Source of the DNA: Planctomycetota bacterium
GTDB taxonomy: Bacteria > Planctomycetota > UBA1135 > GCA-002686595
Assembly: GCA_029259635.1 (NCBI GenBank)
Contig: JAJDEU010000055.1
Span: 1-64,000, forward strand
Reading direction: 5' to 3'
DNA: 64,000 nt
This document shows, piece by piece, positions 46,659-64,000 of this stretch. The first letter of the stretch is position 1; the number at the start of each line of letters is the position of its first letter. Both the position numbers and the translations under genes were made by a program. The notes under the pieces are model-generated. The model was not told the origin of the DNA and did no database searches. It saw only the letters and a program-made list of their open reading frames with translations.

Positions 46659-47477
46659 ATGAAGAACTCATTGGCCTGTCATGACGGCGAATTAAACAAA
46701 CTTGCAAATGTGGAGGCGGAGCCCCTGAAGGGTTTCACCCATATTCCTCCGTCGATGGAAGAGCAACGCGGGAAATCGGAAGTGAAGGCGGTCTCCCGTC
46801 GAGCCGAAGAGATCCGAAATCAAATCGTGCCCGAGCGAGAGCCGGAACCGACGGCCCGATGGGGAAGCGGCGATCTGGCAAGCGCGGGCTTGGAGGAGCT
46901 GTTCGGGTGTTTGATCGGGAGGCAGCCGCGTGCTGAGCAAGACCAGGCGCTCGAACTCTTGGGGCGGCGGCGGTTAGCGCGGCTCGCTCGGTCGACGCCG
47001 ATGGAGCTCGCGGGACATTTTGGTCTCACCGGGCGAGATTCGCGGCGGTTGGCCGCTGCCTTCGAACTCGGGCGAAGGGCGATCTCGGAGGAGGTCGAAC
47101 CGGCACCGGCTTGCAGCTCCGCCGAGCAGGTCTTTCGCCTCGTACATCCCGAGCTCTCGGGGTTGGAGCGGGAGAGATTCTTGGTGCTGCTCTTGGACGG
47201 CAAGCATCGGCTTGCGCGGATGGAGCCGATCAGCGAGGGCACGCTGACCACCTCCCTGGTTCATCCGCGCGAGGTCTTTCGTTCGGCGGTGCGGGAGTCG
47301 GCCGCCGCCCTGATCGCCGTTCACAATCACCCTTCCGGGGACCCAGAGCCCAGTTCGGAGGATTTGGAGGTGACCCGGAGGTTGCGCCGGGCGGGGCGCC
47401 TGCTCGGAATACCCCTCTTGGACCACGTGGTCGTGGGGGCTGGCCGCTTCGTTTCCCTCCGAGAGCGCCTGTGGTGA
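46659..47477 (+). CDS. radC: RadC-family JAB1/MPN metallohydrolase-like protein
   Basis: A 272-residue RadC-like protein. A helix-hairpin-helix segment (TPMELAGHFGLTGRDSRRLAAAFELGRRAI) precedes the JAMM core: Glu in ARMEPISEGTLTTSLVHPREVF, then HNHPSGDPEPSSEDLEVTRRLRRAGRLLGIPLLDHVVVG, where the two His and the Asp bind metal. The 70 N-terminal residues are unusual and may belong to a later start. RadC proteins were named after DNA repair, but a catalytic repair role is unproven. It precedes the secretion operon by about 220 bases. Confidence 0.92.
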   Translation: MKNSLACHDGELNKLANVEAEPLKGFTHIPPSMEEQRGKSEVKAVSRRAEEIRNQIVPEREPEPTARWGSGDLASAGLEELFGCLIGRQPRAEQDQALELLGRRRLARLARSTPMELAGHFGLTGRDSRRLAAAFELGRRAISEEVEPAPACSSAEQVFRLVHPELSGLERERFLVLLLDGKHRLARMEPISEGTLTTSLVHPREVFRSAVRESAAALIAVHNHPSGDPEPSSEDLEVTRRLRRAGRLLGIPLLDHVVVGAGRFVSLRERLW

Positions 47478-47699: not shown

Positions 47700-49655
47700 A
47701 TGGAAACTAGGTACTGGCTCACCATCGAAGGCGGCAAGCGCCGTGGGGAGAGCTTTTCGATTCCGCCTACTGGCTGCCTTCTGGGACGCGATTCGAGCGC
47801 GGATCTTCAGCTGCCCGAGGCCTCCGTCTCGGGCAAACACGCTCGATTGGACGTCGAAGCGGATGGAGTCCGAGTCACCGATCTCGAGAGCCGCAACGGA
47901 GTTCGCGTGAACGGCGAGCGCGTGAAGAACCATTTGATGGCGCACGCGGATCAGCTCTCGCTCGGCAAACTCCAGCTGACCCTCCGCGACCGAACGGTGG
48001 CTGGCAGTACCACCGAGAACTCCGATCCGCTCGTCTCCGGAAGTTCGCTCGCGGAGAGCTCAGAGCAGAAGCTGCACTCGCTCTCCGCGTCCTCTCCGAA
48101 TCGTCGCGCGGTGCCCGCTCTGATTAAAGTCTTGGTGGGCGTCCTCGTCGCCGCGGGAGGTTTCCAAGGCTGGCAGCTCCTCCAAAAATCGGACGCGATT
48201 CCTCGGCGAACACTTCCGGTTGCCCTGGTTCCCGGTGAGTTGCTTGCGGACGGCTCTTTCGAAGAGAGCGCCACTCTTCAGTCATGGGAGACCGAACCCG
48301 AGACGAGTCTTGAGCTCGCCCCCGTCTATCGCCATCGCGGCGAAACCGGGCTCGGCGTGGATTTGACCGAAGCTCAAAGTTTTCGGCTGACTTCGCCGTG
48401 GAGTGCGGTTCGCGAGGGCCGTGCACTTCGAGTCTCGGCGCAGGTGCGAGGGGCGACGGGATTGGAGCTGAGCTCTGGCTTGGAACTCGGCAAGTCATCG
48501 GATCCGAGCGCACGACTCGAGCTTCGCGGGGGCAGCCTCTCCACAAGTGATGAGTTCCGCGAGCTCACGATGACGGAAGCCATTCTCCCGGGATTCGATC
48601 GCGCACGCCTCGTGTTCCGAGTGAGCGCCGCCAACCCCGTGAGCCTTTCTCTCGACGACGTCTCCGTCTCCGAAGTCGCGATGGTCGATCCCGTCGCTCT
48701 CAAGTTCGAAGAGTTCGAGCTCTACCGACACGGGGCGGACGCCACGTCGGCGAGCCTGGTTCGCATTGGTCGGGTTGTCGCTTCCGAACTTCGATTTTTC
48801 ACAGAGGAAGGCGAGAGCCCTCTCGGGATTCAAGAGCTCGCCACCGGCTGGGAGCTCGGCGCCCGTTCTTCGGAGCTCGGGACGCGCTTCTCCTTTCTCA
48901 TTGCGGACAGCCTGTCGGAGTTCGGCTTGGCGACGCTGCACCGAGGGGCCGGTCGGCGCAGATTGTCGGCCGGTAAAGCGACGGAAGTTTCGGGAGTCCT
49001 GGCGGGTGAAGGCACGCTCCTCGTTCGGTTCGGGTTCGCCGAACCGGTGGAGCTTCACTCCGAGCGCGCCCCACAGGGTTGGCGGTTGACGACCGGCTCG
49101 ATCCGGGGGCCAGTCGAACTGCAGCTCTCCTTTCGCGACGTGCGCAACCGCGCCGCGGACCTTGCCGATGCCGCGCGGCGCGCCGACCGGTCGGATTCGC
49201 CGAGCGAGAGCCTGAAGTTGTGGGCGGAACTCCTGGAGAGCGTGCCCTTTGATGCTGAGCTCGTTGCCGAAGGCGAGGCCGCGCGCGGACGGCAACTTCG
49301 AATCGGACTCGATCAGGTCGAAGCCGTGCGCGCCGAGTTCACGCGCGCGCGTTTCTTCAACTTGCCCGAGATCTATCGGAGAAACGCCGACCGCGTGAGC
49401 GCCATAGGAAAACGCTACGCGGGCAGCGAAGTCGCGGAGGAGGCGGCGCGATTGGCGGGCGAAATCAACGCGGAGCTGGCGGGGCACGTGGACGAAGAAC
49501 AAGCGGAAGAGCGCGAGCGCCTGGCGCGAGTGGCTCAAGCACTACAACGCTCCGGCGCCGGCGAGTTGGCCGAGCATGTCCGGGCCGAAGCCTCCGCAGC
49601 CGGCGAAGATCACGATCACGATCCTTCGCACGAAGGGGGAACCACTGATGTCTAA
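47700..49655 (+). CDS. FHA-domain membrane protein of the secretion locus
   Basis: A 651-residue protein from ATG 47700. An FHA domain occupies about residues 1-95: LLGRDSSADLQL, SVSGKHARLDVEAD and LESRNGVRVNGERV are the phosphothreonine-binding loops. A transmembrane helix lies near 138-160 (ALIKVLVGVLVAAGGFQGWQLL). The large periplasmic part (from 170) begins with a beta-sandwich region (GELLADGSFEESATLQSW) and ends in coiled-coil helices (LAGEINAELAGHVDEEQAEERERLARVAQALQ). It overlaps the PilM-like gene by 8 bases and is probably the first gene of the operon. A phospho-dependent link to the nearby kinase is only inferred. Confidence 0.85.
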   Translation: METRYWLTIEGGKRRGESFSIPPTGCLLGRDSSADLQLPEASVSGKHARLDVEADGVRVTDLESRNGVRVNGERVKNHLMAHADQLSLGKLQLTLRDRTVAGSTTENSDPLVSGSSLAESSEQKLHSLSASSPNRRAVPALIKVLVGVLVAAGGFQGWQLLQKSDAIPRRTLPVALVPGELLADGSFEESATLQSWETEPETSLELAPVYRHRGETGLGVDLTEAQSFRLTSPWSAVREGRALRVSAQVRGATGLELSSGLELGKSSDPSARLELRGGSLSTSDEFRELTMTEAILPGFDRARLVFRVSAANPVSLSLDDVSVSEVAMVDPVALKFEEFELYRHGADATSASLVRIGRVVASELRFFTEEGESPLGIQELATGWELGARSSELGTRFSFLIADSLSEFGLATLHRGAGRRRLSAGKATEVSGVLAGEGTLLVRFGFAEPVELHSERAPQGWRLTTGSIRGPVELQLSFRDVRNRAADLADAARRADRSDSPSESLKLWAELLESVPFDAELVAEGEAARGRQLRIGLDQVEAVRAEFTRARFFNLPEIYRRNADRVSAIGKRYAGSEVAEEAARLAGEINAELAGHVDEEQAEERERLARVAQALQRSGAGELAEHVRAEASAAGEDHDHDPSHEGGTTDV

Positions 49656-51285
49656 GCTGATTTGTGGCATCGACGTCGGCACGGGCAGCTCGATCTTTCT
49701 GCGTGGAAAGTCGAAAGGCACGCGCTTCTCCATCACCGACTTTTGGGCGAGTAGTCATCCCTCGCCGGACGTCGCAAGCGCTTGGTCCACTGTCGAGGTC
49801 GACTTCAAGCCCGGCCTCTCGTGCGTCGGGCTGAGCGGTCGCGAGCTCAATATCCGCTACACCGAGGTTCCGCGGCTGCCCGACTGGCAGCTCCGCAAGC
49901 TCATGCGTTTCGAGGTCGAAGAAATCGGCGGGCAAGCGGGAGCGGAGATGGCGTCGGACTTCAACGTCCTGCCCGAGCTGCCCGAGATCGAAGGCGAAGA
50001 CGTGGTTCTGCTTGCCATGGCCCGCGAGTCGTTGCTCGCCGAACACGATGCCGGGCTGACGGCCGTGGGTGGAAAGCTCGCTCACTTCTCGCCCAGTGCG
50101 ATCGGACTCTACAACGCGTGGCTGCACTACGGAGTCATCGAAGAGGACACCGTGCTCGTCGCCAATATCGGTCACCAGAACATCGACGTCGCGATCGTGC
50201 GCGGCACCGACCTCTTGTTTGCGCGGAACCTGTCCGGCGGTTCTCGCCTCTTCGACGAAGCTTTGGCGGAGCGCTTTGACGTGTCGGTCTCACGCGCGGA
50301 GAAGATCAAGCTCGAGCAGGGCAGCCTCTCGCCGGACGCGATCCGCGCGGGAGGCACTCGCGAAAAGGCGGCGCGCGCGCTGCAGGGTGCGGCGGGGCAA
50401 CTCGCGACCCTGCTCCAGTCCGCGGTTCTGTTCTGCAAGACGCAAATCAAGCTGTCGGGACTGACGATCGATCGCATCGCACTGTGCGGTGGCGGGTCGG
50501 CGTTGGAAGGGCTCGATACCTACTTGCAGGGCGCGATGAAGATCCGCGTGGAGGCCTTTGATCCGTTCCGCGTGGTGGATACGACAGCGCTCAGCCCGGC
50601 CGCCGCGGAGTTGTTCGAGGAGTTTCGGCTGGAGTCCGTCGTTGCGCTCGGCCTCGCCACCAGCGCGTCGAACGACGAGTCCTATGCCATTGAAATCCTG
50701 CCGGCGCGCGTGGAGAAACGCCGCCAGTTTTGGGGAAAGACCGCGCTCAGTATCGTGGCCGCCGTTCTGTGCCTCGTGTATCTCGGAGTGCGCGCCCAAA
50801 AAGAGCGCGCGGCGCTGCGGGCGACCGAGACCGAGTTGAGCCAGCTGACCTCGCGCTACACGCGCGCACGACGGGCCGACTTGGACACGCGCGAACTGAT
50901 CGCCGAGAACGAGGAGTTGATGGCAATTGTGTCCGAACTCTGGCTCACGGCTGGAGCGGGTGAACAGTTGGTTCGAGCGCTCGAAGTGATCGAGCGCGAC
51001 CTGCCGCCGGACTTTTGGCTCGACGAGCTCTCCAGTCGCTCGGCCTTCGAAGCCGCGCTTGGAATCGAACGCGGCGACGAACGCCCCGTGCTTCACCTCG
51101 AAGGCAAAGTGCGCGAGGGGACCGCAGCTCCCTCAGCTCTGTTCGAAGTCTTTCTCGCTCGGCTCGCCGCCGAGCTCGATGGAGTCCGAGTCTTGCCCAG
51201 CCTGTCACCGTCGGGGGATCGCTTTACGCTCGATCTCACTCTCTTCAGTTCGCCCAAAAACGCCGAGCCATCGACGGAGGGTTGA
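49648..51285 (+). CDS. PilM-PilN fusion (GspL-like) inner-membrane protein
   Basis: A 545-residue protein. The N-terminal 340 residues are an actin-like PilM domain: CGIDVGTGSSIFLRGK, FKPGLSCVGLSGRELNIRYTEVPRLPDW, and LVANIGHQNIDVAIVRGTDLLFARNLSGG with ALCGGGSALEGLDTYL as phosphate loops. A membrane helix (GKTALSIVAAVLCLVYLGVRA, near 362-382) is followed by a coiled coil and a PilN-like ferredoxin-type domain. Separate pilM and pilN genes are the norm in pilus systems, whereas the fusion resembles GspL of type II secretion. ATG 49648 follows GAAGGGGGA. Confidence 0.9.
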   Translation: MSKLICGIDVGTGSSIFLRGKSKGTRFSITDFWASSHPSPDVASAWSTVEVDFKPGLSCVGLSGRELNIRYTEVPRLPDWQLRKLMRFEVEEIGGQAGAEMASDFNVLPELPEIEGEDVVLLAMARESLLAEHDAGLTAVGGKLAHFSPSAIGLYNAWLHYGVIEEDTVLVANIGHQNIDVAIVRGTDLLFARNLSGGSRLFDEALAERFDVSVSRAEKIKLEQGSLSPDAIRAGGTREKAARALQGAAGQLATLLQSAVLFCKTQIKLSGLTIDRIALCGGGSALEGLDTYLQGAMKIRVEAFDPFRVVDTTALSPAAAELFEEFRLESVVALGLATSASNDESYAIEILPARVEKRRQFWGKTALSIVAAVLCLVYLGVRAQKERAALRATETELSQLTSRYTRARRADLDTRELIAENEELMAIVSELWLTAGAGEQLVRALEVIERDLPPDFWLDELSSRSAFEAALGIERGDERPVLHLEGKVREGTAAPSALFEVFLARLAAELDGVRVLPSLSPSGDRFTLDLTLFSSPKNAEPSTEG

Positions 51286-51288
51286 GCC

Positions 51289-52092
51289 GTGGACCTGAAC
51301 GACATTTGGCAGGAGAACAAGCGCTACTTCACCGGGGTACTCATCGGTGGGTTGGTCTTTCTCGTCGGCATTCTCTTGATCCAGTCGCTCTACGGCGACG
51401 AGCTCAGTCAAGTTCGACGGTCGAAGGCGCGCGTCGAGCGCCAGCTCGGAGAAGCGCGCTATGGAACGACGGAGCGAGAGCTCGCTCGTTCGGAAAACGC
51501 CGCGCTCGCCTCCGCTCTTGACGAGCTCGCCACGGCGGTCGAGTTCCGAGCGCGCGATGACTTTCGGCTCGACCCCGCGGCCGGCTCTTCGGTGAATCAA
51601 TACCACCGGTCGGTGGCGCGCGTGCGCGAACGCCTGCTCTCCCGCGCCGGCCGGGCGAATCTGTTCCTCGACGCCAATCTCGGTCTTCCGGATTTGTCGC
51701 CAGCCGAAGACGAGGAGATCGCGCGCTATCTCGATGCGCTCGATGCAGTTGCGCGAATAACGGAGTGGGCGATCGCGTCGGGCGTGGAGCGCGTCGATGA
51801 CGTGCGCATCCGGCTCGACCCCGGCTTCGGTTCACGCAAGGGCGTCGGCGCAGTCGAGCGCACGCGCGTCGAGTTTGAATTCGCGGGCAGCGGTCTGGCG
51901 CTGACCCGTCTGCTGCGCGCGACACAGCGTCCCAAAGAGCACGGGCTCGCGCACACGGATCAACCGCTCTCCATTTATTCGCTCGAGCTTCGCCCCGCGC
52001 GCAATCGCGCGGAGAAGTCAAAGCTCACTCTCTCGATCGACCTCGTCAGGCTGCACGCCGCGGCGAGCTTCGCGGAGGATTCCCAGTCGTGA
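51289..52092 (+). CDS. PilO/GspM-like inner-membrane protein
   Basis: A 267-residue bitopic protein: membrane helix at 13-33 (RYFTGVLIGGLVFLVGILLIQ), a coiled-coil region, then a compact alpha/beta domain with VERTRVEFEFAGSGLALTRLL followed by SIYSLELRPA. This order matches PilO or GspM, which pair with PilN/GspL in the assembly platform. GTG start 3 bases after the PilM-PilN stop. The sequence identity to characterised members must be low, since the call rests on topology and position. Confidence 0.75.
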   Translation: MDLNDIWQENKRYFTGVLIGGLVFLVGILLIQSLYGDELSQVRRSKARVERQLGEARYGTTERELARSENAALASALDELATAVEFRARDDFRLDPAAGSSVNQYHRSVARVRERLLSRAGRANLFLDANLGLPDLSPAEDEEIARYLDALDAVARITEWAIASGVERVDDVRIRLDPGFGSRKGVGAVERTRVEFEFAGSGLALTRLLRATQRPKEHGLAHTDQPLSIYSLELRPARNRAEKSKLTLSIDLVRLHAAASFAEDSQS

Positions 52093-54920
52093 AATTGAGT
52101 CTTGCCAAAGAACCCGCGCTCCTCATCGGAGTCGCGCTGATCATCGGTGTCTTGTTTCTTCGGCTCGACGCGGAGCCCGCGTCCCTGCGTGGCCGTAAAA
52201 AGGCAGAGGCGCTCGAGCTACAGGAGAGCCGCCTTCCCGATGTCGCGCGCGCGAAGCCGCGCATTGTCGGCAATGAAGCCGGAGCGAGCACCCGCGACCT
52301 CTTCGTGCAGCCGTCGGACACGCGTCCGCTGCCTCCGCTCGACTGGATCGATCCGCCGCGCGCGGAGCTCGCCGCGATCTTTCCGCCGCTCGACCCGGGC
52401 CCGGCTCCGGCGCTCTTTGGAGAGTTTCTGCGCCGCGAGATGGTTCGCATCGACTCGAGTGAGTCGGGCGCGACGCAGTTGGCATTGCCCGTGTTCGACG
52501 ATCAGCTGGACTCAGGGCGCGGGGGATCGGATGTGAGTGGCGTACGATCTGCACTGCGCGAACTCGGCAAACGCATCGGTTCGGAGGAGGAGGACGCGAC
52601 GCTCTCTCCCGCGGAACGGGCTGCACAGCGCGCGAGCTATCGACGCGTCTACGACTGGATCGAGTTGAGTGGCGCGATCACGATCTACGGCTCGATCGAA
52701 AACGATGATCGATTCGCGCTCTTCCTCGATGAACGGAGCGCCGCTCCCGTCGTGTTTCGGCAGATCAATCCGACGACCGGACAGGAGAGCTTCCCCGGTC
52801 AACCGCCGATCAACTACGAGCAAGAGCGATTGACTGAGATCGGCCTTGCGCTGAATCGCAGCAACGAGCTGGAGCTCCGCTCGCGTCGCTTGAAGATGCT
52901 CGGCAGCACCCAGCGCGAGGTCTTGGCCTTCGCCGAGTATTGCCTGGAGTCGCGACTGGCCGCGCCGCGCGCCATGCAGCTCGCGCAAGAGGCGCTGATG
53001 CCGCTGATCGAGGCGGTCCCCGACGATCCCGCTCCGCGCTTGGCACTAGCGCGTACCTTTGAAGCCGACTTCGAGTTCGAGGCGGCTTTTGTCGAGGTTC
53101 GAGCTCTCCTCGAGGAGTTTCCCGAGAACCCCGAGATCTACGTGGCGTTCGCCGAGCTCGAGCTGCGCTGTCTGCTCTTCGAATCCGCTGAAGAGCATTT
53201 GCTCGCCGCGCTCCGCCTCGACCGCACTTCCTCGCGAGCTCACTGGGTGCTCGGCCGCATGTACGGCAAGCGCGGAGAAACCGAACTCGCGCTGAATCAT
53301 TTGGAGGCGGCCCAACGTCATATGGCGGAAGAGCTCGAGCCGCTCACCGTTCGCGTCGAGGTGCGCACCGACCTGGCCGGCGCGCTGCTCGCGCGCGGTG
53401 AAATCGAGGCCGCCGCCCGTGAACTAGAGATCGCACGGCGCCTCGATCCGCTCGACCAGGAGACTCTGGCGGCGCTGATCCACTGCGCGATCATCGACCC
53501 TGCACTCGTCGGAATCACTGCGCCCGCACGCGGAGCTGGCGCACCGGAGGCGGCACTCGAGACCTGGCTGCAGCCGATCTCCGACGTCGTGCGCGAGCGC
53601 GAGTCTTCGGATGGTTCACTCGGCTTGCGATTCGAGCTCTTGATGGCGATTGGCCTGTGGGATCTCGAGCACGGCGACGGGAGCTCGGCAAAGACGCGCT
53701 TCACCGCAGCCGCAATCGCGGATCCTCTTCGGGCTCACTTCGCTTCACGCGCTCTGTCCTACCTGTTCGAGACGGTCGGCGATCTGGAGGGTGCCATGTC
53801 GCTCATCGAGCAAGCGCTGGAGGGCAATCCGTCCGACGCGTGGAGCCTGTACCAACGCGGTCGACTGCAGGTCCTCTCGGGCGACCTCGACGGGGCACAA
53901 GCGAGTTTTGAAGCCGCGCTCGAACAAGACCTCGACTTCGACGACGCGCTGGTCGCACTCGGCGAGCTGCTCTTGGAGGACGGCGCCTATAACGACGCAA
54001 GCCGCTACTTCGAACGCGCGCTCTCGCGCGACACCGGCCGCGCGGAGGTCCACACACTAGAGGGATTGGTTCGCCTGCGCTCGGGGTCCTTCTTCGAAGC
54101 GCTGGCCTCTTTCGAGCGTGCGCTCGAATTGCGTTTCGATGATCCGGTCGCGCTCGGCGGCAAAGCCTGGGCGACCTATCGAACCGGCAACTCGGCCGAG
54201 GCGCTCATCCTGCTGGCACAGCTCGACGACTCGCGCCGAGCTTTTTCCGAAGAGGACGCGCATCGCATCTGGGCGCGCGAACAGATCGCGCGCATCACCG
54301 ATCATCTGGAGAAGGTCGCCTGGGGCGACGGCTTCGCGCGCACGGTGATTCGCAACGGCTGGCAGGTTGACGAGGGAGCCGGTCCGCTGGTCGGGCTCGA
54401 GGGCGAGACGGTGCGGCTCTCCGGCGTCTTCTCACGCGCGGGCAAGACGCGCATCTATCGCGAGTATCCCGCGGGCAGCTTCGTTTCGATCGAGGCTAGC
54501 GTGTGGATTCCCGCCGGCGCTCCGATTCGGGGAGGCCTGTTTGTCGCTCGCGAGCGACGACGTCAACGCGTCTGGACGACCGAGAGCGAGGTCTCGATTG
54601 CGCGGCATTCGGACGGAGCGCTCGAGGTTTGCATCGAGCGGTCGGCGACCACAGAGCCCGAGACGCTCAAGACGAACGAGATCGAATTTCCGACGGGGCG
54701 GTGGGTGCGCGTGCGCATCGAACGAACCGGAACGGTTGAAGAGCCGACGGTCGACGTCTTCCTCGGGGGCGTGCCGGTTGTGATCGGAGCGGACTTCCCG
54801 CAGCTCGGTCGTGGCGGGCAGCCGTTGCGCGTCGGCGTCTTCGCCGAGGGCGAGACCGGACGCGAGGTCGACCTCAAGCTCGACGACGTGGTCGTCGTCT
54901 ACCGGGAGCTCGGCCAATGA
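52089..54920 (+). CDS. large membrane-anchored TPR protein of the secretion operon
   Basis: A 943-residue protein. It has an N-terminal membrane helix (ALLIGVALIIGVLFL, about 10-24) and a periplasmic segment with FVQPSDTRPLPPLDWIDPP, comparable in position to PilP/GspC but without clear homology. From about residue 300 it carries many TPR units (PRLALARTFEADFEFEAAFVEV, SEVHWVLGRMYGKRGETELALNHLEAA-type repeats, AWSLYQRGRLQVLSGDLDGAQASFEAALEQ). The last 150 residues form a concanavalin-like sandwich (FVSIEASVWIPAGAP, then WVRVRIERTGTVEEPTVDVFLGG). Four-base overlaps with both neighbours. Confidence 0.8.
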   Translation: MKLSLAKEPALLIGVALIIGVLFLRLDAEPASLRGRKKAEALELQESRLPDVARAKPRIVGNEAGASTRDLFVQPSDTRPLPPLDWIDPPRAELAAIFPPLDPGPAPALFGEFLRREMVRIDSSESGATQLALPVFDDQLDSGRGGSDVSGVRSALRELGKRIGSEEEDATLSPAERAAQRASYRRVYDWIELSGAITIYGSIENDDRFALFLDERSAAPVVFRQINPTTGQESFPGQPPINYEQERLTEIGLALNRSNELELRSRRLKMLGSTQREVLAFAEYCLESRLAAPRAMQLAQEALMPLIEAVPDDPAPRLALARTFEADFEFEAAFVEVRALLEEFPENPEIYVAFAELELRCLLFESAEEHLLAALRLDRTSSRAHWVLGRMYGKRGETELALNHLEAAQRHMAEELEPLTVRVEVRTDLAGALLARGEIEAAARELEIARRLDPLDQETLAALIHCAIIDPALVGITAPARGAGAPEAALETWLQPISDVVRERESSDGSLGLRFELLMAIGLWDLEHGDGSSAKTRFTAAAIADPLRAHFASRALSYLFETVGDLEGAMSLIEQALEGNPSDAWSLYQRGRLQVLSGDLDGAQASFEAALEQDLDFDDALVALGELLLEDGAYNDASRYFERALSRDTGRAEVHTLEGLVRLRSGSFFEALASFERALELRFDDPVALGGKAWATYRTGNSAEALILLAQLDDSRRAFSEEDAHRIWAREQIARITDHLEKVAWGDGFARTVIRNGWQVDEGAGPLVGLEGETVRLSGVFSRAGKTRIYREYPAGSFVSIEASVWIPAGAPIRGGLFVARERRRQRVWTTESEVSIARHSDGALEVCIERSATTEPETLKTNEIEFPTGRWVRVRIERTGTVEEPTVDVFLGGVPVVIGADFPQLGRGGQPLRVGVFAEGETGREVDLKLDDVVVVYRELGQ

Positions 54921-55555
54921 CGCGGCCGCAGAAGATGAGCTTCGGCGCGCGCGCCGGCTTCACGTTGATCGAGATGATCGCGGTGCTCCTAATCCTGTCG
55001 ATTCTCGTGGGCGTCTTCTTGGTGAATATCGCGGGTACTCAGGAGCTGGTCGAGGTTCAGCTCATGCGCACGCAGCTCGAACAAATCTCGCTCGCCGCTA
55101 GCGAGTACGAGGTCGAAGAGGGCGACTATCCGCCGAGCCATTTTGACGAGCGCACCGGTCCGGCGCCCAATCCGATCAACCTGGGGATCGAGCGCATGCT
55201 GATCGCGCTCTGGTCCGACGGACTGGAGGGCTGCGGACTCTCGCCGGATGACCTCGACAACCTCGACGGCGATCGCAGCGCGAACCGGCTCAGCGACCTG
55301 CCGACCTCGGATCTCTTCGAGCTCCTCGATGCATGGGGCAACCCGATCGCCTACTTCCATCACACCGACTACGAGCGCGAAGACGTCTACCAGACCTTTG
55401 ACACGCTGACCGGCGAGCGCGAGGAGGAGAAGGTCCGGGCGCTGAAGAACCCAAAGACCAAGCTCTTCTTCGAGCACCGAAAGTTTCAACTGATCTCGGC
55501 CGGCCCCGACGGGCTCTTCATGACCGAGGACGATATCACCAACTTCAAACGATGA
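54917..55555 (+). CDS. GspG-like major pseudopilin
   Basis: A 212-residue prepilin. The class III signal is short and basic, and is cut after Gly14: G14-F-T-L-I-E19 with the required Glu at mature position 5, then the hydrophobic helix MIAVLLILSILVGVFLV. The globular part keeps GspG features: LEQISLAASEYEVEEGDYPP, LLDAWGNPIAYF and the calcium-binding end SAGPDGLFMTEDDI. It is longer than usual GspG proteins (about 145 residues) by an insertion after the PPS segment. It is probably the main building block of the pseudopilus. Four-base overlaps on both sides. Confidence 0.92.
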   Translation: MTRPQKMSFGARAGFTLIEMIAVLLILSILVGVFLVNIAGTQELVEVQLMRTQLEQISLAASEYEVEEGDYPPSHFDERTGPAPNPINLGIERMLIALWSDGLEGCGLSPDDLDNLDGDRSANRLSDLPTSDLFELLDAWGNPIAYFHHTDYEREDVYQTFDTLTGEREEEKVRALKNPKTKLFFEHRKFQLISAGPDGLFMTEDDITNFKR

Positions 55556-56562: not shown

Positions 56563-59500
56563 GAGGCTTACGGACAGGAGGGCGCTTCTCTTCAGAGCGC
56601 GGCGGGTTCGCGATGATCGCCGTGCTGCTCGTACTCCTCGCGCTGTTCGTCCTCGCGACGCCCTACCTCCTGGGGATTCGACGCGCGGACCGCGAGAGCG
56701 AGCGCGTCTTCGACCGCATGTCCGCGCGCCTCGCGCTCGACGATGCTGCGCGCCACGCCCGCGCTCGACTCGACGCGACTCATCCCGCGGTAGACACGTC
56801 GCCGTACTGGGATTCGATGGACGAGCTCGCGATCGACAATCATCTCGACCCCGAGTTCGTGAACGCGAACGATCCGAATGGAGTCATGTGGGATCTCGAT
56901 GCCACCGACCTCTCGGGGCGGGTGGATCTGGGCAGCGCATCGCCCGGCGTGCTCGCGAACCTGATGGGTGGGCACACTTGGCTCGCCAAAGCTGCATCGG
57001 AGGAGGACGCGTCCCTGAAGACCGCGTCGACCCGCGGCTTCGCGGGTGAGGGGTTTTTGTGGGTCGGTGGCGAGCGCATGGCTTACTTGGAGAGCGACGG
57101 CTCGACCTTCGGCAAGCTCGAGCGGGAGCTCTTCGGCGACGCGAATACGGACGCGGTGAATCCCGACTGCGACTTCGCGCGGCCGCGCGCTCACGATGCC
57201 GGCGCGCCGGTGCTCGGTCTCGAGGCCTTCGCTCTTCCCCTGTGGCGCATTCGTGCCGAGACGGCGAAGTGGCGGACGCCGGCGGACTTCGAGCAGGTAA
57301 GAGAGGCGTTCGACGAGTCCATCAGTGGGCCCGCCGACGAGCTGGCCTTCATGCTGCTGAAGGGTGGCGCGACGACTTTCGGTGGACTCGGGGCGGGGCC
57401 GCGTTGGCAGCGCGCGACTCGGCTGGTGGACTCCGTGGTCGGCGGCAACGACTGCGCGCTGCGTGTCGAAGAAGCGCACTACTTCAATCCGGGTACGACC
57501 GTTCAGATCTCGAATGGCGCGATCTCGGAGATGGCGATCGTGCGCGAGGTCATCGGTTCGGTGGTCAAGCTCGAACGCGTGCTGCTCGGCGACTACGACG
57601 CCTTCGACGCGGTGGTTCGGCCGCTCGCTCGGCGTCCCGTCAATCTGAACAGCGCGCCGCCCGAGGTTCTGCACGCGCTCTTTCTCGGACTCAAGCTGCG
57701 TCGCAGAAACGCGCGCATCACCGACCGCGAAGCGAATCAGTTGGTGGACTCGGTGCTCGTGAGTAGGCCCTTCACCGGCTTCGAAGACTTCTTGAACCGC
57801 GTCGTTCTGCCGGCGGCGGGGCTGGAGCAGGGTGGCGCTGGCGAGAACAGCTTCATGGATGCGGTCGATGCCGAGGCGCTCTATCGAAACGGACTGAACG
57901 CGAACGACCGCGCGCTCGAGTTCTCCACGATGCCCTTTGCGTTTACCACGCGCGGAACTTTTGGACTCTCGCTGCGCAGCTCGATCAACGCGAAAAGCGG
58001 AATCGAGCGCGCTTCGCTGGAGCGCGAGCAGGTCGAGGTGATGGTTCCGCAGCGCGAGCTGATGCGCCTGTGGACGCGGCAGGAGGATTTCGATGAGGAG
58101 CTGCGGCTCTCGCGCGAGGCGCCGCTCTGGTCAACCGGTCCGTCGGCCACTTCACTCGCGTCGAACGGAGCGAATCCGCCCTCGCGCTTTGCCGCACACT
58201 TTGGGACGTTGACCGAGGGCGCGCTGATGGGTGAGCTCGCCCCGGGCTTTGCCTCGCGCGACGAGCACGGCTGGGCGCAGCTCTTCGCGACGCGCACCGA
58301 CGACCGGGAGACCGACTACCACTCACGCCATGTCGAACACATGGACCGCGAGACCTCGAACCTCGAGGGCATGGACTTTTCGCGCGCCGGCGCTTATGCG
58401 GCGAATGCCTCGGATCCGGACGTCGAGTGGACGGGCGCACAGGGCGACTTGCTGCGGCCGTTCTCCTTTGCGATGTGGGTCAAGCCCCAGCTGCGTGCGT
58501 CAGGTGCGCTCTACTTCGATCTGGGAGATTCGGCCTACCCGGACACGGATCGTGTGTCGCTCAGCGAAGAGGGCACCGATCTCTTGGTCAGTGTGCTCGA
58601 TGCCGGCGGCGATCACCGGCTGAGCGTTCTCGAAGAGCGCACCGAGGTCCGCGTTCCGATCGAGCACTTTCCGCTCAACACCTGGACGCATTTGTCGATA
58701 GACGTGCGCGGCAGTCGGCCGGATCAGATCACGGTTCTGGTCGATGGTATGGCGCGCGGTGAGACGAGCGGGCTGACGAAGCTCGCGACGAACTTGGGCG
58801 AGACGGCGACTACGATTCAGGTGGACTCGACGGAGGGCTTCGGCGCGGTGGGCGAGCGTTGTGTCGTTCAGATCGGAAACGAGATCATCGAGGCCGAGGT
58901 GATGGGTCCGACGACGCTGCTCGCGACGCCGTATGTCGACGGAATGAACGCCGGCATCGGCGGGCGGGCGGCGCGGGAGCAGGAGTTGTGGAGGTCAGAC
59001 GGCAGCGAGCAGCTCAACCAAGGTATCGGTGTTGTTCGCAACCACCCGGCGCTCTCCGCGGTTCAGCTCTTTGGCTACAGCCGCGCGCTCCGCTCTTCGG
59101 CTCCGGTGGGGGCGACGAGCTTGCCCACACCGCTCGGTCCCTTTGCGGTGGCGGAAGTGCACACGGTGGAAGGGGGGACCCTGCACGAAGGTGATTTGAT
59201 CGAGGTGGAGGGGCTGAACGGAGCGCGCAGGTTGGGAACCGGAATCAAGGGGCGAAGCAGCAACGCGACCGGACTGGTCTTACGACGTGGCGATGATCCC
59301 GGGAGTGGGGACACATCCTTTCTTTCGGCGTTCAATACCAGCGGCGGCTACGCGATGTTAGTTCAGCGAGAGATGATCATTACGTTCGACAACTCGCCCA
59401 CGCAAAGAGAGACGATTCATGGCGAACCGCTCGGCGGAATGGAGCTCATTCGCTATACGGGCATTAAGGACAATATCTTGCAGCTCGCGCTTCCCCGGGG

Positions 59501-61769
59501 AGAGGTTCGAAAGGAACTGAATAGCAGTAGCCCGATTCCAGCTGGAGGAGACGTACGCGTGTTCGTTACCGATTTCGACGACAATGTGGACTGGGGTTCT
59601 GGTCCCAACGGCGATGAGGAGTTGACGTATCAGCTGTTCGTCGTGCCGATCTCCCTACCGGCACCTAACGTCCTCGCGGGCAATCAGCAGTTTCTCGATC
59701 AGACGACCTCAGATGTTCCCCAGTTCGCACAAATCACGCGCGTCGATAACTTTCGGCACCTGACGGAGTGGATTTGCTACGACAGGATCATTGCGCCGCC
59801 GAGTGGCGCGCATCCTCAGTTCGTACGCGACCACCCCGACGTCCTCGAGCGCGTGCGAAAATTGATTGCCCCTCAACCGATCGAAGCCAATATTCAAGCG
59901 GCTTCGCCGACGCCTCCGCAAGGTGGCGGTCCAGGGCAACCCCCCAAAGAGGAAGGCTTTCCCGTGCCGGGGAGCACCGGCGTGGGAATTTTTCGCGCCG
60001 TTTCGCCGAACACAATGGCAAGCACGTCGGCTTCCGCCAATCCCGCCGCGCTTCCCCCGTTGAGCCCCGCTGCAGCTCCGCAATCCACGTCGCAGGATAC
60101 GGCTTCCGCGCTCGACGACTTCGGCTACTGGAAGGGCGATCTCGGCGTGGCGGAAGACCAGGACTACTTCCTCACGAGTGCCGTGCGGAAGACGCTTAAC
60201 TTCCGCGGCGTGATGGGCACGTATCCGCACGATCATCCCCCGGGAACCCCGATCCTGCCCGTCTTTCGCGTCTGGAGAGACGAGGACGATGTCGGCATTC
60301 CCGGTGCTGGTGATCGGGCTTGGTTGATCTTCGAAAACGAAGATTCGATCGGCGAACCGGTCAGCATTCACCGCAGCTACTTGCCGGGCGACCGCTATCC
60401 CACCCAGGGCTGGCTCTCCGCATCCTACGTGGCCAAGGCTGGAACGACTTCGACCGAGCTCTTCGAAGAAGCCCGCTCGGGGCTGAGCTCGCCGGACTTT
60501 GAGAGCCAGGTCTTCATCGCTCTCGAAGAACGGATCGGAACTTTCCTACCGCCAACAGAGGGACCCACGACGAGTTCGGGAGCACCCCTTGATCGCGAGA
60601 TGCGCAGCATCACGCGGCTGGTGAAGTTTCCGAGCGGCGAGCTTCCGCGCGCGGTCGACTCGATTGCAGTCGGCGGCCCCGCGGCAGGTACGAACGGCGG
60701 TCCGATGCCGGACGCGATCGTGGATGAGTTGGAGTTCGGCGCGACGCTCTTCGGGGGCTCGATGGCTCCTGGCGATGTCGCTCGCGGTGCCGCGATGGTT
60801 CTCGATGAAGCGCTCGGGCTCGGAACGGGGTCGATTGAGATCTGGTCGAAGACGATGCGCGACTCGCGCGGATTTTTTAACACCGGCTTCGCACCGCCCC
60901 GCGAGCTTCCCCGCGGTGGCGGCCTGCTGCGCATCGGCGAAGAGTTGATCGCCTACGACAACGTGGACCCCGGCGGAACCGCGATCGATATTGCTCCCGG
61001 CGGACGCGGGATGCTCGGCACGGAAGAGCAGCCGCACCGCGTCGGCGAGTCGATCTACTTTTTGTCGCACATGCGCACGACGACGACCTTGGGCCAAGTC
61101 GGGCCCGCCGACGCCGACGTCGCGCTGGCCGACCTGCACGGCCTGCCGGAAAGCGGGACGCTCTTGGTCGGGAAGGAACTGCTCCACTACACCCATAGCG
61201 ATGCGAACCGTGGCGCGGGAGTGGTCGGCATGCCGCGCGCTTCCGAAGAGCCCGGCGAACGTGACGGCGAGGGCGGCGCGCTCTTCCGCGGACGCTTTGG
61301 AACCGCGGCTTCGGCGCACGTGACGGGGACGCCGGCTGTGCTCTTCCCCACGCGCTACCTCGATCGCTGGGCCGATGGGGCGGAAGCACCGGAGCTGTCC
61401 TACTTCGGCTTCGCGGCCAGCCAGCCGAACGCCTACTGGCAGAGCGCCTTCTTCGAAGAGAGCGAGCCCCAGCATCCGGGCGCGCAGCTCGGCCTGCTCG
61501 TTCGCGCTTCGCCCGAGATCCCTTGGGATGCGGATCCGGACAAGACGGACGGCCTGTGGTTGTTCGACAAGGGGCAAGAGGAGAACCGCAGCCTCGCGCT
61601 CGGCGTGCAGTCCGATCTCTTGGAGTGGCGCGTCTTTGTGCGCTATGAGCCGGGCGCTTTCGATTTCCTGTCGGGCTTCGCGCACGGCTGGAAGACCACG
61701 CCCGAGCTGCGCTTTGTCGGCGCGGAGTTTGTGGCGCCGCGGGTGACGTTGTTCCGGGAGGACCGATGA
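56559..61769 (+). CDS. giant GspK-like minor pseudopilin with LamG-like domain and repeats
   Basis: A 1736-residue protein, several times longer than usual GspK (about 300-350). Start ATG 56559 overlaps the previous stop. N-terminal prepilin helix at 15-37 (GGFAMIAVLLVLLALFVLATPYLL), lacking Glu at +5 as GspK does. A GspK SAM-like/HhH segment lies at 358-422 (RPVNLNSAPPEVLHALFLGL, then FTGFEDFLNRVVLP). A LamG-like domain is at about 608-740 (RPFSFAMWVKPQLR, WTHLSIDVRGSRPDQITVLVDG). Short beta modules occur near 160, 290, 740, 1450 and 1530. A Pro/Ser-rich linker lies at about 1100-1185. It probably caps the pseudopilus or binds substrates. Confidence 0.88.
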   Translation: MRGLRTGGRFSSERGGFAMIAVLLVLLALFVLATPYLLGIRRADRESERVFDRMSARLALDDAARHARARLDATHPAVDTSPYWDSMDELAIDNHLDPEFVNANDPNGVMWDLDATDLSGRVDLGSASPGVLANLMGGHTWLAKAASEEDASLKTASTRGFAGEGFLWVGGERMAYLESDGSTFGKLERELFGDANTDAVNPDCDFARPRAHDAGAPVLGLEAFALPLWRIRAETAKWRTPADFEQVREAFDESISGPADELAFMLLKGGATTFGGLGAGPRWQRATRLVDSVVGGNDCALRVEEAHYFNPGTTVQISNGAISEMAIVREVIGSVVKLERVLLGDYDAFDAVVRPLARRPVNLNSAPPEVLHALFLGLKLRRRNARITDREANQLVDSVLVSRPFTGFEDFLNRVVLPAAGLEQGGAGENSFMDAVDAEALYRNGLNANDRALEFSTMPFAFTTRGTFGLSLRSSINAKSGIERASLEREQVEVMVPQRELMRLWTRQEDFDEELRLSREAPLWSTGPSATSLASNGANPPSRFAAHFGTLTEGALMGELAPGFASRDEHGWAQLFATRTDDRETDYHSRHVEHMDRETSNLEGMDFSRAGAYAANASDPDVEWTGAQGDLLRPFSFAMWVKPQLRASGALYFDLGDSAYPDTDRVSLSEEGTDLLVSVLDAGGDHRLSVLEERTEVRVPIEHFPLNTWTHLSIDVRGSRPDQITVLVDGMARGETSGLTKLATNLGETATTIQVDSTEGFGAVGERCVVQIGNEIIEAEVMGPTTLLATPYVDGMNAGIGGRAAREQELWRSDGSEQLNQGIGVVRNHPALSAVQLFGYSRALRSSAPVGATSLPTPLGPFAVAEVHTVEGGTLHEGDLIEVEGLNGARRLGTGIKGRSSNATGLVLRRGDDPGSGDTSFLSAFNTSGGYAMLVQREMIITFDNSPTQRETIHGEPLGGMELIRYTGIKDNILQLALPRGEVRKELNSSSPIPAGGDVRVFVTDFDDNVDWGSGPNGDEELTYQLFVVPISLPAPNVLAGNQQFLDQTTSDVPQFAQITRVDNFRHLTEWICYDRIIAPPSGAHPQFVRDHPDVLERVRKLIAPQPIEANIQAASPTPPQGGGPGQPPKEEGFPVPGSTGVGIFRAVSPNTMASTSASANPAALPPLSPAAAPQSTSQDTASALDDFGYWKGDLGVAEDQDYFLTSAVRKTLNFRGVMGTYPHDHPPGTPILPVFRVWRDEDDVGIPGAGDRAWLIFENEDSIGEPVSIHRSYLPGDRYPTQGWLSASYVAKAGTTSTELFEEARSGLSSPDFESQVFIALEERIGTFLPPTEGPTTSSGAPLDREMRSITRLVKFPSGELPRAVDSIAVGGPAAGTNGGPMPDAIVDELEFGATLFGGSMAPGDVARGAAMVLDEALGLGTGSIEIWSKTMRDSRGFFNTGFAPPRELPRGGGLLRIGEELIAYDNVDPGGTAIDIAPGGRGMLGTEEQPHRVGESIYFLSHMRTTTTLGQVGPADADVALADLHGLPESGTLLVGKELLHYTHSDANRGAGVVGMPRASEEPGERDGEGGALFRGRFGTAASAHVTGTPAVLFPTRYLDRWADGAEAPELSYFGFAASQPNAYWQSAFFEESEPQHPGAQLGLLVRASPEIPWDADPDKTDGLWLFDKGQEENRSLALGVQSDLLEWRVFVRYEPGAFDFLSGFAHGWKTTPELRFVGAEFVAPRVTLFREDR

Positions 61770-62842
61770 AGCCTTTGGTTATTCGTCGGAAGGACTGTCG
61801 AGCGCGCGCTCGCCGCGGCTTGACGCTGATCGAGCTGATGATCGCGATCGGATTGACGTCGCTGCTCGTCGTTGCCCTCGTCACGTTGCTCGAGACTTCA
61901 CTCGGCGTCTGGGGCCGCACGGAGACGCGGCGCGACCTGCTCGAACGGGCGACCTCCATCTCCGAGCTGCTGGCGAATGATCTCCTGGCGATCGACGGGG
62001 GCAAGCGCGGCGATCTAATCGTGGACTGGGAAGCCTTCGATACCGACGGGGATGGGATCGCGGGATTGTTCTATCAGCGCCTGCGATTGGTGCGACGGAT
62101 CTCGCGGGCCGAGCTCTCCTCGCGCACTTCGCTCATGGCGAACGCGGACGGCCGCGAATCCGAACCGGCGGGCGCCTTAATCGAGGTCAGCTGGTTGATG
62201 CTGCCGGGCGAGATTGGCTCCCTCCAACGCGGCGAGCGCTTCCTCGATCCGCTCGAATCGATCTTCGATGACGACTACTTGGATGAGAGCGGACTGCCGC
62301 CGGTCGGCGCTGTCTCGGAAGTCTCGCGGAGTGTCTTGTGGTTCGGTTTGGCTCTCGCATCGCAGACCAGTGACCTCACGTCGGGCTGGCAGATCGGAGA
62401 CGACTTGCTCGACTGCGGCGTGGCTTGGGATGCGCGAACGAGCGGCCGTACGGACGAGGAGCTCACGACGCTCAACGCGCTACCTACGGGATGTCCCACG
62501 TCGAAGGAGCTCCCGGTCTTTCCGCGCCGCGTGCGAATCGAGCTCGAGATCGAACGCGCGAAAGACCTCGAACACCGCACGACTTTGACGGAGATGATCG
62601 ATCCGAAGGAGACGTCGCTGGTATTGCGCGATGAGCGCTTTGCGCCGGATGCGAATACCTTCGTGCGCATCGACGAGGAGTGGATGGAGGTTCGGCGAGT
62701 GGATGGCAAGCGTCTGACGGTCGTGCGCGGCGTGCGCGGCTCGCGCAGCACCGACCACGAGGTGGGCGCACTCGTTCACTTCGGCACGCGCACCGTGCGC
62801 GAACTGCGCGTCGCCGCCTATCGCGAGGACTGGAACCTATGA
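61766..62842 (+). CDS. GspJ-like minor pseudopilin with extra C-terminal module
   Basis: A 358-residue prepilin cleaved after Gly18: G18-L-T-L-I-E23, then MIAIGLTSLLVVALVTLLE. The order and the length class of the globular domain (FYQRLRLVRRI, GALIEVSWLMLPGE) fit GspJ. The last 80 residues (LVLRDERFAPDANTFVRIDEEWMEVRRVD, then VVRGVRGSRSTDHEVGALVHFGT) copy the short beta module found several times in the GspK-like protein. Four-base overlaps with both neighbours. Confidence 0.88.
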   Translation: MKPLVIRRKDCRARARRGLTLIELMIAIGLTSLLVVALVTLLETSLGVWGRTETRRDLLERATSISELLANDLLAIDGGKRGDLIVDWEAFDTDGDGIAGLFYQRLRLVRRISRAELSSRTSLMANADGRESEPAGALIEVSWLMLPGEIGSLQRGERFLDPLESIFDDDYLDESGLPPVGAVSEVSRSVLWFGLALASQTSDLTSGWQIGDDLLDCGVAWDARTSGRTDEELTTLNALPTGCPTSKELPVFPRRVRIELEIERAKDLEHRTTLTEMIDPKETSLVLRDERFAPDANTFVRIDEEWMEVRRVDGKRLTVVRGVRGSRSTDHEVGALVHFGTRTVRELRVAAYREDWNL

Positions 62843-63375
62843 GTGCACTTCGCATCTCCCGACGTTCGGGCTCGCGCTCGGGCTTCACTCTGATCGAGGT
62901 CGTGCTCGCGATGGGCATCTTCCTACTCGGCGCGACCGCGATCCTGGGCTTTCTGACCTTCGGCGCGACGATGTCGCGCACCGCCAGCTTGCGCACGCTC
63001 TCCGCCGAAGCGGTCGAGGCGATCGCGCTCGATCTCGAAGAGGGGCTCTTCCCGCTCGACGAATCCGGCGCCGTCGGCGAGCCGCGAACGATTGTCGATC
63101 GAGAAGTGCCCGGCTATCGCGAGCTGACCTACACCGTTCAAACCGTCGAAGATACGAACGCCGACCTCGAGCGAGACGCGAGTCCAGAGGTTCGCGTCGA
63201 CATCGAAATCAAGTGGAAGGGCGGCGTCTCGCGACGCGGCCGGCGCCTCTCGATCTTACTGTTGAAGGAAGTGCCCTTCGGCGAGCGCTTGAGGCGTCAA
63301 CTGTTGCCGGCGAGAGAAGAGCAGGTCTCGGATCAGCAGAACGGATCCGATGTGAAGCAAGAGACTCAACCATGA
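62839..63375 (+). CDS. GspI-like minor pseudopilin
   Basis: A 178-residue prepilin cleaved after Gly15: G15-F-T-L-I-E20, then VVLAMGIFLLGATAILGFLTFGA, a typical GspI/PilV helix. The globular part is short (YRELTYTVQTVEDTNADLERDASPEVRVDIEIKWKGG) and ends in a charged tail. It is longer than classic GspI (about 120 residues). Start 62839 is chosen because it overlaps the preceding stop by 4 bases and gives a proper prepilin signal; the frame extends 160 bases upstream without one. Confidence 0.9.
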   Translation: MSALRISRRSGSRSGFTLIEVVLAMGIFLLGATAILGFLTFGATMSRTASLRTLSAEAVEAIALDLEEGLFPLDESGAVGEPRTIVDREVPGYRELTYTVQTVEDTNADLERDASPEVRVDIEIKWKGGVSRRGRRLSILLLKEVPFGERLRRQLLPAREEQVSDQQNGSDVKQETQP

Positions 63376-64000
63376 TGATGACTCGACAATTTTCGAAGGC
63401 GCTCGTGCTCCTCTTGAGCCTTCTGGCCAGCGCGCCGCTCATGTTCGCGGGGGACGAGCGGATGGTCGGGCTTCGAAGTGGCGAAGTGCTCTGGGCCGAA
63501 GTGGAGAGCCACGACGAGGACGGGGTGGATTTCTTGCGACTCGACAACGGCGGTCGCGTGCGACTCGCGTGGTCCTTGCTCGACCCGCGCTTTGAACAAG
63601 AGCTGCGCGCGGAGTTCGGCTACTTGGATGTCGCGAACGAAGAGGTCATGGTCACGGCGGATCGGATTCGAACGGTGGACGGTGAAGAGCTCATCGGCCT
63701 CATCGTGCATCGCACCGAAGACGCGCTTCACATCAAGACGGCCCAGCGCATGATCGCTCTGCCGAAGCTGCGCATCGCCGGACCGAGTGTTTTGGTGCGC
63801 GCACCGGCGCTGGATATCTACTCGCGCGAAGAGCTGGTTCAGAAAGAGCTCGACGAGCGCCGCGGTGCTCTCGGTTTGGAGGGCGCGCGCGGTGCGGCGG
63901 CGCACTTCGACTTGGCGCAGTACTGCGAGCGCATTCTCGATTACGCCAGTGCGGTGCGGTATTACGAGCTCGCGGCGGCCAAAGATTCGAGTTGGCGACC
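63372..64000 (+). CDS. exported TPR protein, 3' part beyond the window
   Basis: ATG 63372 (ATGATGATG, overlapping the preceding stop) opens a frame that runs off the window after 209 codons. Signal peptide: MMMTRQFSKALVLLLSLLASAPLMFAG. The next region has beta-rich repeats with LRSGEVLWAEVESHDEDGVDFLRLD and VDGEELIGLIVHRTEDALHIKTA, similar to SH3-like units. Helices resembling TPR begin at about residue 180 (AAAHFDLAQYCERILDYASAVRYYELAAAKDSSW). It is the last visible member of the secretion operon. The continuation is not in view. Confidence 0.85.
   Translation, partial: MMMTRQFSKALVLLLSLLASAPLMFAGDERMVGLRSGEVLWAEVESHDEDGVDFLRLDNGGRVRLAWSLLDPRFEQELRAEFGYLDVANEEVMVTADRIRTVDGEELIGLIVHRTEDALHIKTAQRMIALPKLRIAGPSVLVRAPALDIYSREELVQKELDERRGALGLEGARGAAAHFDLAQYCERILDYASAVRYYELAAAKDSSWR

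Follow-up and report, generated by a model that had tools for sequence, protein, structure and literature searches.

What kind of filament would carry a GspK-like pseudopilin of 1736 residues? The question is raised by a ten-gene operon in a Planctomycetota bacterium whose 5.5 Mb genome is approximately 90% complete. The window, by which we mean the whole stretch of 64,000 nucleotides analyzed, comprises bases 1–64000 of contig C51; the operon spans 47700–64886 on the + strand, its last gene crossing the window end, and is ordered FHA, PilM–PilN, PilO-position protein, TPR, G, H, K, J, I, TPR, the five single letters denoting prepilins named after their Gsp counterparts. A preliminary description of the window had recognized a compact operon of pseudopilus or pilus type with FHA, PilM–PilN and TPR proteins, five prepilins and a further TPR protein; gene positions and starts agree with that earlier list, and the PilM and PilN profile matches, together with the five prepilins, bear out the type. 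We propose that the operon encodes a type IV filament (a pseudopilus or short pilus) of a conserved planctomycetal type, the H–J–K tip of which would bind an extracellular ligand, probably a polysaccharide or particle surface, a reading to which we give about an even chance. Four-base overlaps occur at six of the eight gene junctions from FHA to I, and the genes are as follows (values in brackets are E-values).

47700–49655, + strand: FHA-domain protein, first gene of the operon (651 residues, ATG at 47700; PF00498, 1.6e-14; PF16697, 1.5e-15)
49576–51285, + strand: PilM–PilN fusion of GspL-like architecture (569 residues; Pfam PilM_2, 1.3e-14)
51289–52092, + strand: protein in the PilO/GspM position, so placed by position only (267 residues)
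52089–54920, + strand: TPR protein (943 residues; TPR_19, 5.1e-21)
54917–55555, + strand: GspG-like prepilin with Glu+5 (NCBIfam GspG, 3.9e-12, below cut-off; N_methyl, 2e-5)
55552–56562, + strand: GspH-like prepilin with Glu+5 and a C-terminal LamG domain at residues 142–270 (PF13385, 3.7e-9)
56559–61769, + strand: giant GspK-like pseudopilin without Glu+5 (1736 residues)
61766–62842, + strand: GspJ-like prepilin with Glu+5 and one C-terminal K-type module at residues 300–339 (module hidden Markov model (HMM), 2.8e-4)
62839–63375, + strand: GspI-like prepilin with Glu+5 (NCBIfam XpsI, 6.7e-5, and gspI, 0.0044, both below cut-off)
approximately 63372–64000, running on to contig base 64886, + strand: second TPR-type protein (504 residues; TPR match of the window part only 0.02)

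The protein K occupies 56559–61769 at the length first reported, and its identity as a GspK was assigned from the predicted fold. Profiles matched the window's K below their cut-offs (PF03934, E = 0.0031, 18.3 bits against a cut-off of 24.2; NCBIfam GspK NF037980, E = 5.6e-4, 19.5 bits against 130), and NF037980 reached E ≤ 0.01 in 12 of 20 K sequences. The structure was predicted in two parts, residues 1–1112 and 1185–1736, each from 85 sequences, with mean predicted local distance difference test (pLDDT) scores of 87.0 and 84.8, respectively, and was superposed using VIA-align, whose own tool note states that Z-scores up to approximately 8 are common without kinship. The top row for the first part was Pseudomonas aeruginosa XcpX (6utu_C; Z 13.7, root-mean-square deviation (rmsd) 3.0, 213 of 261 residues aligned, model residues 53–498), and XcpX within the XcpGHIJK filament model (9a1f_T) gave Z 13.1 with 246 of 295 residues aligned (model residues 17–498). 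As modeled, the GspK fold within the giant K is complete and includes its alpha domain, and the following parts are predicted along its length.

56607–58052, + strand: GspK pseudopilin fold, K residues 17–498, with a long alpha-1 helix at 17–74 (predicted structure, VIA-align)
56964–57230, + strand: phage-type beta-module inserted in the GspK core, K residues 136–224 (VIA-align of the predicted structure)
57390–57632, + strand: second inserted module, K residues 278–358 (VIA-align of the predicted structure)
58365–58778, + strand: LamG/pentraxin-like sandwich, K residues approximately 603–740 (VIA-align of the predicted structure, hhalign)
60771–61373, + strand: two consecutive phage-type modules, K residues 1405–1605 (predicted structure and phage profile)
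61362–61745, + strand: C-terminal beta-sandwich, K residues 1602–1729 (pLDDT above 90 for most of it)

The length of K is shared by its relatives. Across 85 sequences, the window's included, K measures 1352–1914 residues with starts placed 20 residues before the profile match, and 82 of them are at least 1600 residues long; an alignment of 20 sequences (the window's plus 19) covers the whole length, except for one whose N-terminus was shortened by the gene call. The 85 similarly long sequences and the end-to-end alignment rule out a frameshift, fusion or assembly artefact, and the GspK fold over residues 17–498 rules out a LamG adhesin lacking a pilin part.

The domains added to this core are of several kinds. 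Both modules inserted in the core are approximately 80 residues in size. The first (136–224) superposed on 9in6_M, a phage VP1 capsid entry (Z 9.8, rmsd 1.6 over 71 residues), on 8jov_1 from a phage GP4 portal–tail complex (Z 9.5) and on 8rk3_b from the JBD30 baseplate (Z 9.2), and the second (278–358) on 7w1c_B, a K1 capsule lyase (Z 9.7 over 78 residues), 9n71_A, the tail tube of phage Mystique (8.7), and 4ru4_B, the LKA1 tailspike (7.9). Residues 603–740 gave PTX3 (Z 8.7), neurexin (7.8) and laminin (7.7); the LamG family PF13385 was matched by six of 20 K sequences, the window's not among them, and hhalign related the K LamG region to the LamG part of H (probability 90, E = 1.9e-6). Further on, a Gly/Pro-rich linker precedes the C-terminal modules (1405–1605), which returned 9in6_M (Z 9.9), 8jov_1 (8.9) and the JBD30 baseplate 8rk3_b (7.8). 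By profile, the phage tail family phrog_1101 was found in 71 of 85 K sequences at E ≤ 0.01 (window, 2.6e-5; best, 1.9e-12) and PF23666 (Rcc01698_C, the C-terminal domain of the Rcc01698-like family) in 18 of the 85, again not in the window's. We take Rcc01698 to be a gene transfer agent (GTA) protein. The terminal sandwich (1602–1729) matched common folds only, with Z below 7. At E ≤ 1e-3, a BFVD search with K returned 36 matches of low TM-score, a likeness at the level of modules only, and tblastn of the C-terminal K modules against phage records returned eight cyanophage records, the best with a non-significant E of 0.1. The pseudopilins had earlier been described as LamG-bearing, which is upheld for H by profile and for K by predicted structure and hhalign; much of the giant K, however, consists of phage-type beta-modules and other beta domains that had gone unseen.

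An HMM built from the first C-terminal module copy of K found one copy in 10, two in eight and three in three of 21 K proteins. The window's K yielded a single copy, the first of the C-terminal pair, and the inserted module at 136–224 was missed; the remaining copies are predicted from structure. The same HMM matched 11 of 19 J proteins, the window's included, and found no copy in H, G, I, both TPR proteins, or the FHA, PilM–PilN and PilO-position proteins, nor in any of 202 shuffled proteins. Elsewhere in the genome, a SecD–SecF fusion (L228:2499-5435, contig C17; SecDF by Pfam) has the same RG..H..G module within its periplasmic SecD portion, as do the SecDF proteins of two relatives (L230, L231), judged by eye from translations. 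A 1025-residue open reading frame (ORF; L229:4536-7613, contig C42) of the same genome contains one module copy, is tail-protein-like and has no Pfam match; our guess is that it is prophage-derived.

The four remaining prepilins bear prepilin signals with Glu+5. By a strict pattern, Glu+5 is present in 37 of 39 G sequences (one more by a looser pattern), 34 of 38 H, 33 of 37 J and 31 of 39 I (eight more by the looser pattern), and in none of 41 K sequences, eight of which fitted neither pattern. The division seen in the window's own sequence, with Glu+5 in G, H, J and I and none in K, agrees with what had been described. LamG PF13385 was detected in 18 of 20 H sequences, the window's included, and against PDB profiles this part of H scored best with neurexin (2.5e-9), laminin (5e-8) and geopilin (8.9e-8). 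Apart from a weak Verru_Chthon C match, the window's J returned only the general prepilin motif from Pfam and NCBIfam, and NCBIfam gspJ matched nine of 18 J sequences, the window's not among them. G, H, J and I were assigned from their position, the prepilin motif and profiles that mostly stayed sub-threshold; with K assigned by predicted structure, five pseudopilin types, G, H, I, J and K, occur together at one locus. A modular type IV pilin, defined by an N-terminal pilin module and a module that is not filament-specific, is represented by each of H, K and J. Both elements on which the preliminary description had staked its reading, prepilin cleavage signals and a GspK-type fold, were found, as Glu+5 signals and, in the predicted structure, as the superposition on XcpX.

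Upstream of the prepilins lie the candidate platform proteins. The PilM part of the fusion matched PDB profiles at 2.2e-24 (profile positions 5–344) and the PilN part at 5.3e-5 (positions 351–469); the nearest NCBIfam family is Amuc_1101 (6.8e-31), whose cut-off of 650 bits was missed at 107.8 bits. For the 267-residue protein that follows, no match was obtained in Pfam or NCBIfam and the best PDB profile had E = 0.09; since no library gave a convincing match, its PilO/GspM label rests on position and is a guess. Profile searches thus bore unevenly on the earlier assignments: PilM, PilN and the LamG of H were recovered, GspG, GspI and GspK stayed sub-threshold, gspJ did not match the window's J, and of the proposed PilO/GspM-like protein only a gene in that place was borne out, with no PilO or GspM profile support in Pfam, NCBIfam or PDB. 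The C-terminal 199 residues of the 943-residue TPR protein are possibly a LamG/ConA-like sandwich, judging by hhalign against the LamG part of H (probability 76, E = 2.3e-5); against the LamG of K the probability was 16, a Pfam scan of the window's C-terminus gave no match, and 3keto-disac_hyd (1.4e-4) was found in one of three orthologs scanned. The middle part of the window's FHA protein had no Pfam match and an hhalign probability of 4 against H.

Far from being an oddity of one genome, as its first description as unusual might suggest, the K-bearing locus is widespread in the phylum. Within the class, 147 of 154 genomes have K, including all 53 of good quality; phylum-wide, a K profile match at E ≤ 1e-5 was found in 249 of 392 genomes (110 of 216 of good quality), a count that takes in weak matches near 1e-6, possibly ordinary GspK. 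All ten genes occur at 19 of 20 class loci, chosen for their contig margins from the 147 genomes with a match, a figure that is partly circular because the gene profiles were built from those loci and the window; they also occur at 13 of 20 other phylum loci, chosen from the listed higher-scoring same-phylum matches and not a random sample, and PilM–PilN, TPR, G, H, K, J and I stand together at 18 of these 20. Profiles located the FHA protein at 19 class loci and 15 of the others, the PilO-position protein at 20 and 16, and the second TPR-type protein at 20 and 15. Ortholog counts in alignments include the window's own sequence. Because the gene set is conserved, a chance explanation for it is excluded. 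A scan of one genome per species with two peptide patterns retained the best 80 of 102 relatives and gave 78 loci, in planctomycetes wherever the source is named; the cultured strains Pla86, Pla163 and Poly30, presumably of the Saltatorellus clade, are represented there. Relatives in other phyla may exist as well. Several phylum genomes rated 99–100% complete gave no K match, and hence the K-bearing filament is not the fibre of all planctomycetes. At two loci (L213, L217), K is unaccompanied by platform genes or further prepilin genes, L213 retaining a match to the second TPR protein.

As for the flanks, a RadC gene (window 46659–47477) lies directly 5′ of the operon, and a relative is encoded upstream at four of the 20 class loci; for most of these 20 loci, little DNA is available on that side. 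A PpiC-like protein and then ScpB are encoded downstream.

What would drive such a filament is encoded elsewhere. The preliminary description had pointed to the sequence beyond 64000 as the place to look for GspD, GspE, GspF and a prepilin peptidase, but contig C51 contains no secretin or GspF match and a single ATPase match, below cut-off and 85.6 kb in; the operon thus lacks the arrangement of secretin, GspE and GspF at one locus that is a trait of the type II secretion system (T2SS). Genome-wide profile matches comprised seven secretin, 13 T2SSE (one below cut-off) and 10 T2SSF domains, and two prepilin peptidase matches over cut-off, unlinked to the operon, so the secretin and ATPase genes that the earlier reading presupposed do exist in the genome. 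Clusters of type IV pilus type lie on contigs C21 and C47. A platform on contig C62 (148001-168000), for which no secretin match was obtained, combines GspE/GspF, two prepilins and three other genes that are small or of PilM size, and its 552-residue gene is without an NCBIfam match. On contig C47 (L042:1063-13509), two TPR-secretin proteins (865 and 879 residues) flank a 982-residue TPR protein, ExbB and ExbD, and two secretin matches 8.7–12 kb apart on one contig were observed in 16 of 20 genomes. In genome G115 the sole PilM_2 match is the operon's fusion, and its two GspF-family proteins are encoded elsewhere. The operon and one of the unlinked motors would make a full set.

Together, these proteins may form a filament as follows. 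The PilM–PilN fusion would, by its sequence, be part of the membrane platform; the GspG-like prepilin and the four further prepilins H, I, J and K would build the filament, with an unlinked prepilin peptidase processing the subunits, an unlinked GspE/PilB-type ATPase and GspF/PilC protein driving it, and an unlinked secretin letting it pass. By analogy with T2SS and type IV pili, assembly would be primed by a tip complex of H, I, J and K. In type IV filaments these four subunits are described as an assembly-priming tip complex with K on top (PMC9934059), and on that arrangement a large crown would arise from the domains added to H, J and K: LamG on H, a module on J, and modules, LamG and the terminal sandwich on K. 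With less support, this crown may bind a polysaccharide or particle surface, for attachment or for delivery of polymer to the cell. A more far-reaching version, which we advance tentatively and consider less likely than not, is that gene order defines a distinct and ancient class of filament machine in the Planctomycetota, in which LamG and phage-tail-type modules have been grafted onto H, J and K to give a polysaccharide-capture device resembling a phage tail tip.

The operon could instead be an accessory tip and platform of an ordinary T2SS, in which channel and motor come from an unlinked cluster comprising secretin, ATPase, GspF and four prepilins, and periplasmic heads of K and H select or push very large exoproteins. 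A suitable cluster exists: for the first four genes of a compact cluster on contig C48 of the same genome, the closest NCBIfam families are GspD, GspE, GspF and GspG, each match falling a little short of its cut-off, and of the next three genes one matches GspH (2e-6), one PilV only (9.4e-4) and one nothing. The same layout, with secretin and GspF matches and four short genes that for the most part match prepilin profiles of the operon, recurs in six other genomes examined (L218, L219, L222, L225, L226, L227), and there neither a K-profile nor a PilM_2 match was found in the cluster, parts that the operon would supply as K and as an L-like protein, given the GspL architecture of PilM–PilN. However, the T2SS cluster has its own prepilins, and a smaller GspK-like protein of 492 residues (NCBIfam 5.3e-7, below cut-off) adjoins a GspD-like secretin of 527 residues on contig C55 (2001-20000), apart from the T2SS cluster, with a similar pair in genome G104 (L221). 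A T2SS need not, therefore, borrow the giant K, and we consider this account less likely than a ligand-binding filament, though far from negligible.

Still less probable is that the operon encodes a retractile type IV pilus used in motility and powered by an unlinked PilB/PilT/PilC-type cluster, with the giant K as a surface-gripping tip adhesin in the manner of PilY1. Such a cluster may be at hand on contig C47, which joins three T2SSE-family genes and one GspF-family gene; in G104 and G115, genomes approximately 90% complete with the fewest GspF domains, the four domains represent two proteins each, one in a T2SS-type cluster and the other, judged by ORF sizes, in a C47-like locus; and the cultured relatives presumably belong to the Saltatorellus clade, a group described as shape-shifting (PMC11481906). 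Against this, G is GspG-like (3.9e-12, below cut-off) rather than a type IVa major pilin, and Pfam and NCBIfam scans recognized no PilT or PilY1 gene in the operon, which makes a motility pilus quite improbable.

Polysaccharide capture or particle attachment is favored over both on two published analogies: in Streptococcus sanguinis, the pilin PilC has a ConA-like, lectin-like module that binds glycans (PMC9934059), and a role in glycan attachment has been proposed for the MUL2 locus of Akkermansiaceae, with its PilM protein Amuc_1101 (PMC13174399). Several points weigh against a glycan-binding filament. No carbohydrate-active enzyme or transporter was recognized among the ten genes in Pfam and NCBIfam scans, and the crown, which adds approximately 1,200 residues to the GspK core, would need either to get through a secretin or to remain in the periplasm. 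Because GspD, GspE, GspF and the peptidase lie outside the operon, assembly of the filament is a step that we infer, and the window's GspK, GspG and GspI profile matches are all below cut-offs. A Foldseek search of PDB with both K parts gave no match at E ≤ 1e-3, and for this reason the fold claims for K rest on VIA-align rows and, C-terminally, on profile matches; F1-ATPase barrels appear in the same VIA-align list as the C-terminal part at Z approximately 5–6, and since low Z-scores are in any case common without kinship, we relied on rows with Z above 8 and on profile matches. LamG domains and small beta-barrels serve protein contacts too. The presence of the module in SecDF suggests that it may be a general protein-contact module, which argues against a purely glycan-directed role; glycan binding there would make no obvious sense.

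With a predicted tip of LamG and phage-type modules, an operon that is nearly universal in one planctomycetal class offers a concrete, testable candidate for polymer capture in little-studied lineages. Uptake of high-molecular-weight dextran has been observed in two model planctomycetes, with gold-labelled dextran adhering to their pili-like fibres, the genes of which are unnamed in the available text of that report (PMC5394234). The operon further widens the concept of the modular pilin to take in a giant GspK, and suggests that a pseudopilin fold can accept phage-type modules within it. No published account of it was found in the open-licence literature by word matching of titles and abstract starts. 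Published work already covers modular pilins, pilins with LamG and the idea that GspK is modular (PMC8179133). New, it appears, are the great length of K, phage-type modules placed within a pseudopilin fold, an operon with three decorated tip subunits, and conservation across a large part of the phylum.

Among known systems, the GspK/XcpX protein of the T2SS provides the closest likeness of fold: K residues 17–498 superpose on XcpX, Glu+5 is absent, and the neighbors are G, H, J and I, whereas K is approximately five times longer, with two beta-modules inside the core and LamG and many other beta domains added. The modular type IV pilins, such as PilB and PilC of S. sanguinis and the PF13385 pilins, likewise join a pilin module to a grafted LamG/ConA-like module, thought to lie at the tip (PMC8179133, PMC9934059), a combination shared by the operon's proteins. 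The preliminary description, by which normal GspH and GspK carry no sandwich domains, needs a correction here: pilins bearing LamG were known before, as modular pilins (PMC8179133) and as the lectin pilin PilC (PMC9934059). The most extreme modular pilin named in a 2021 survey, by repeats, had 12 added repeats and a total length of 860 residues (PMC8179133); K, in contrast, has 1736 residues and phage-type modules, and H, J and K are three decorated subunits in one operon. The Akkermansia MUL2 locus (amuc_1099-1102) is linked to the operon through Amuc_1101, the nearest NCBIfam family of PilM–PilN at a score far below cut-off, but comprises four genes as described, with no giant K, LamG pilin or FHA protein named in the accessible part of the account (PMC13174399). 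A resemblance to the Verru_Chthon cassette A–D (TIGR02600, 02598, 02599, 02596) is seen in matches of K to A (two of 20 sequences, best 9.4e-6), of J to C (four of 18, best 1.2e-8) and of the window's I, J and H to B, C and D (5.1e-4, 0.01 and 0.0039), although the window's proteins fall below the NCBIfam cut-offs or have no match. To our knowledge, that cassette includes no platform genes. Finally, the small beta-module is held in common with phage virion proteins and the GTA protein Rcc01698 (phrog_1101, PF23666; 9in6, 8jov, 8rk3), but unlike in those particles there is no tail gene among the ten genes of the operon, and the module is grafted onto pseudopilins.

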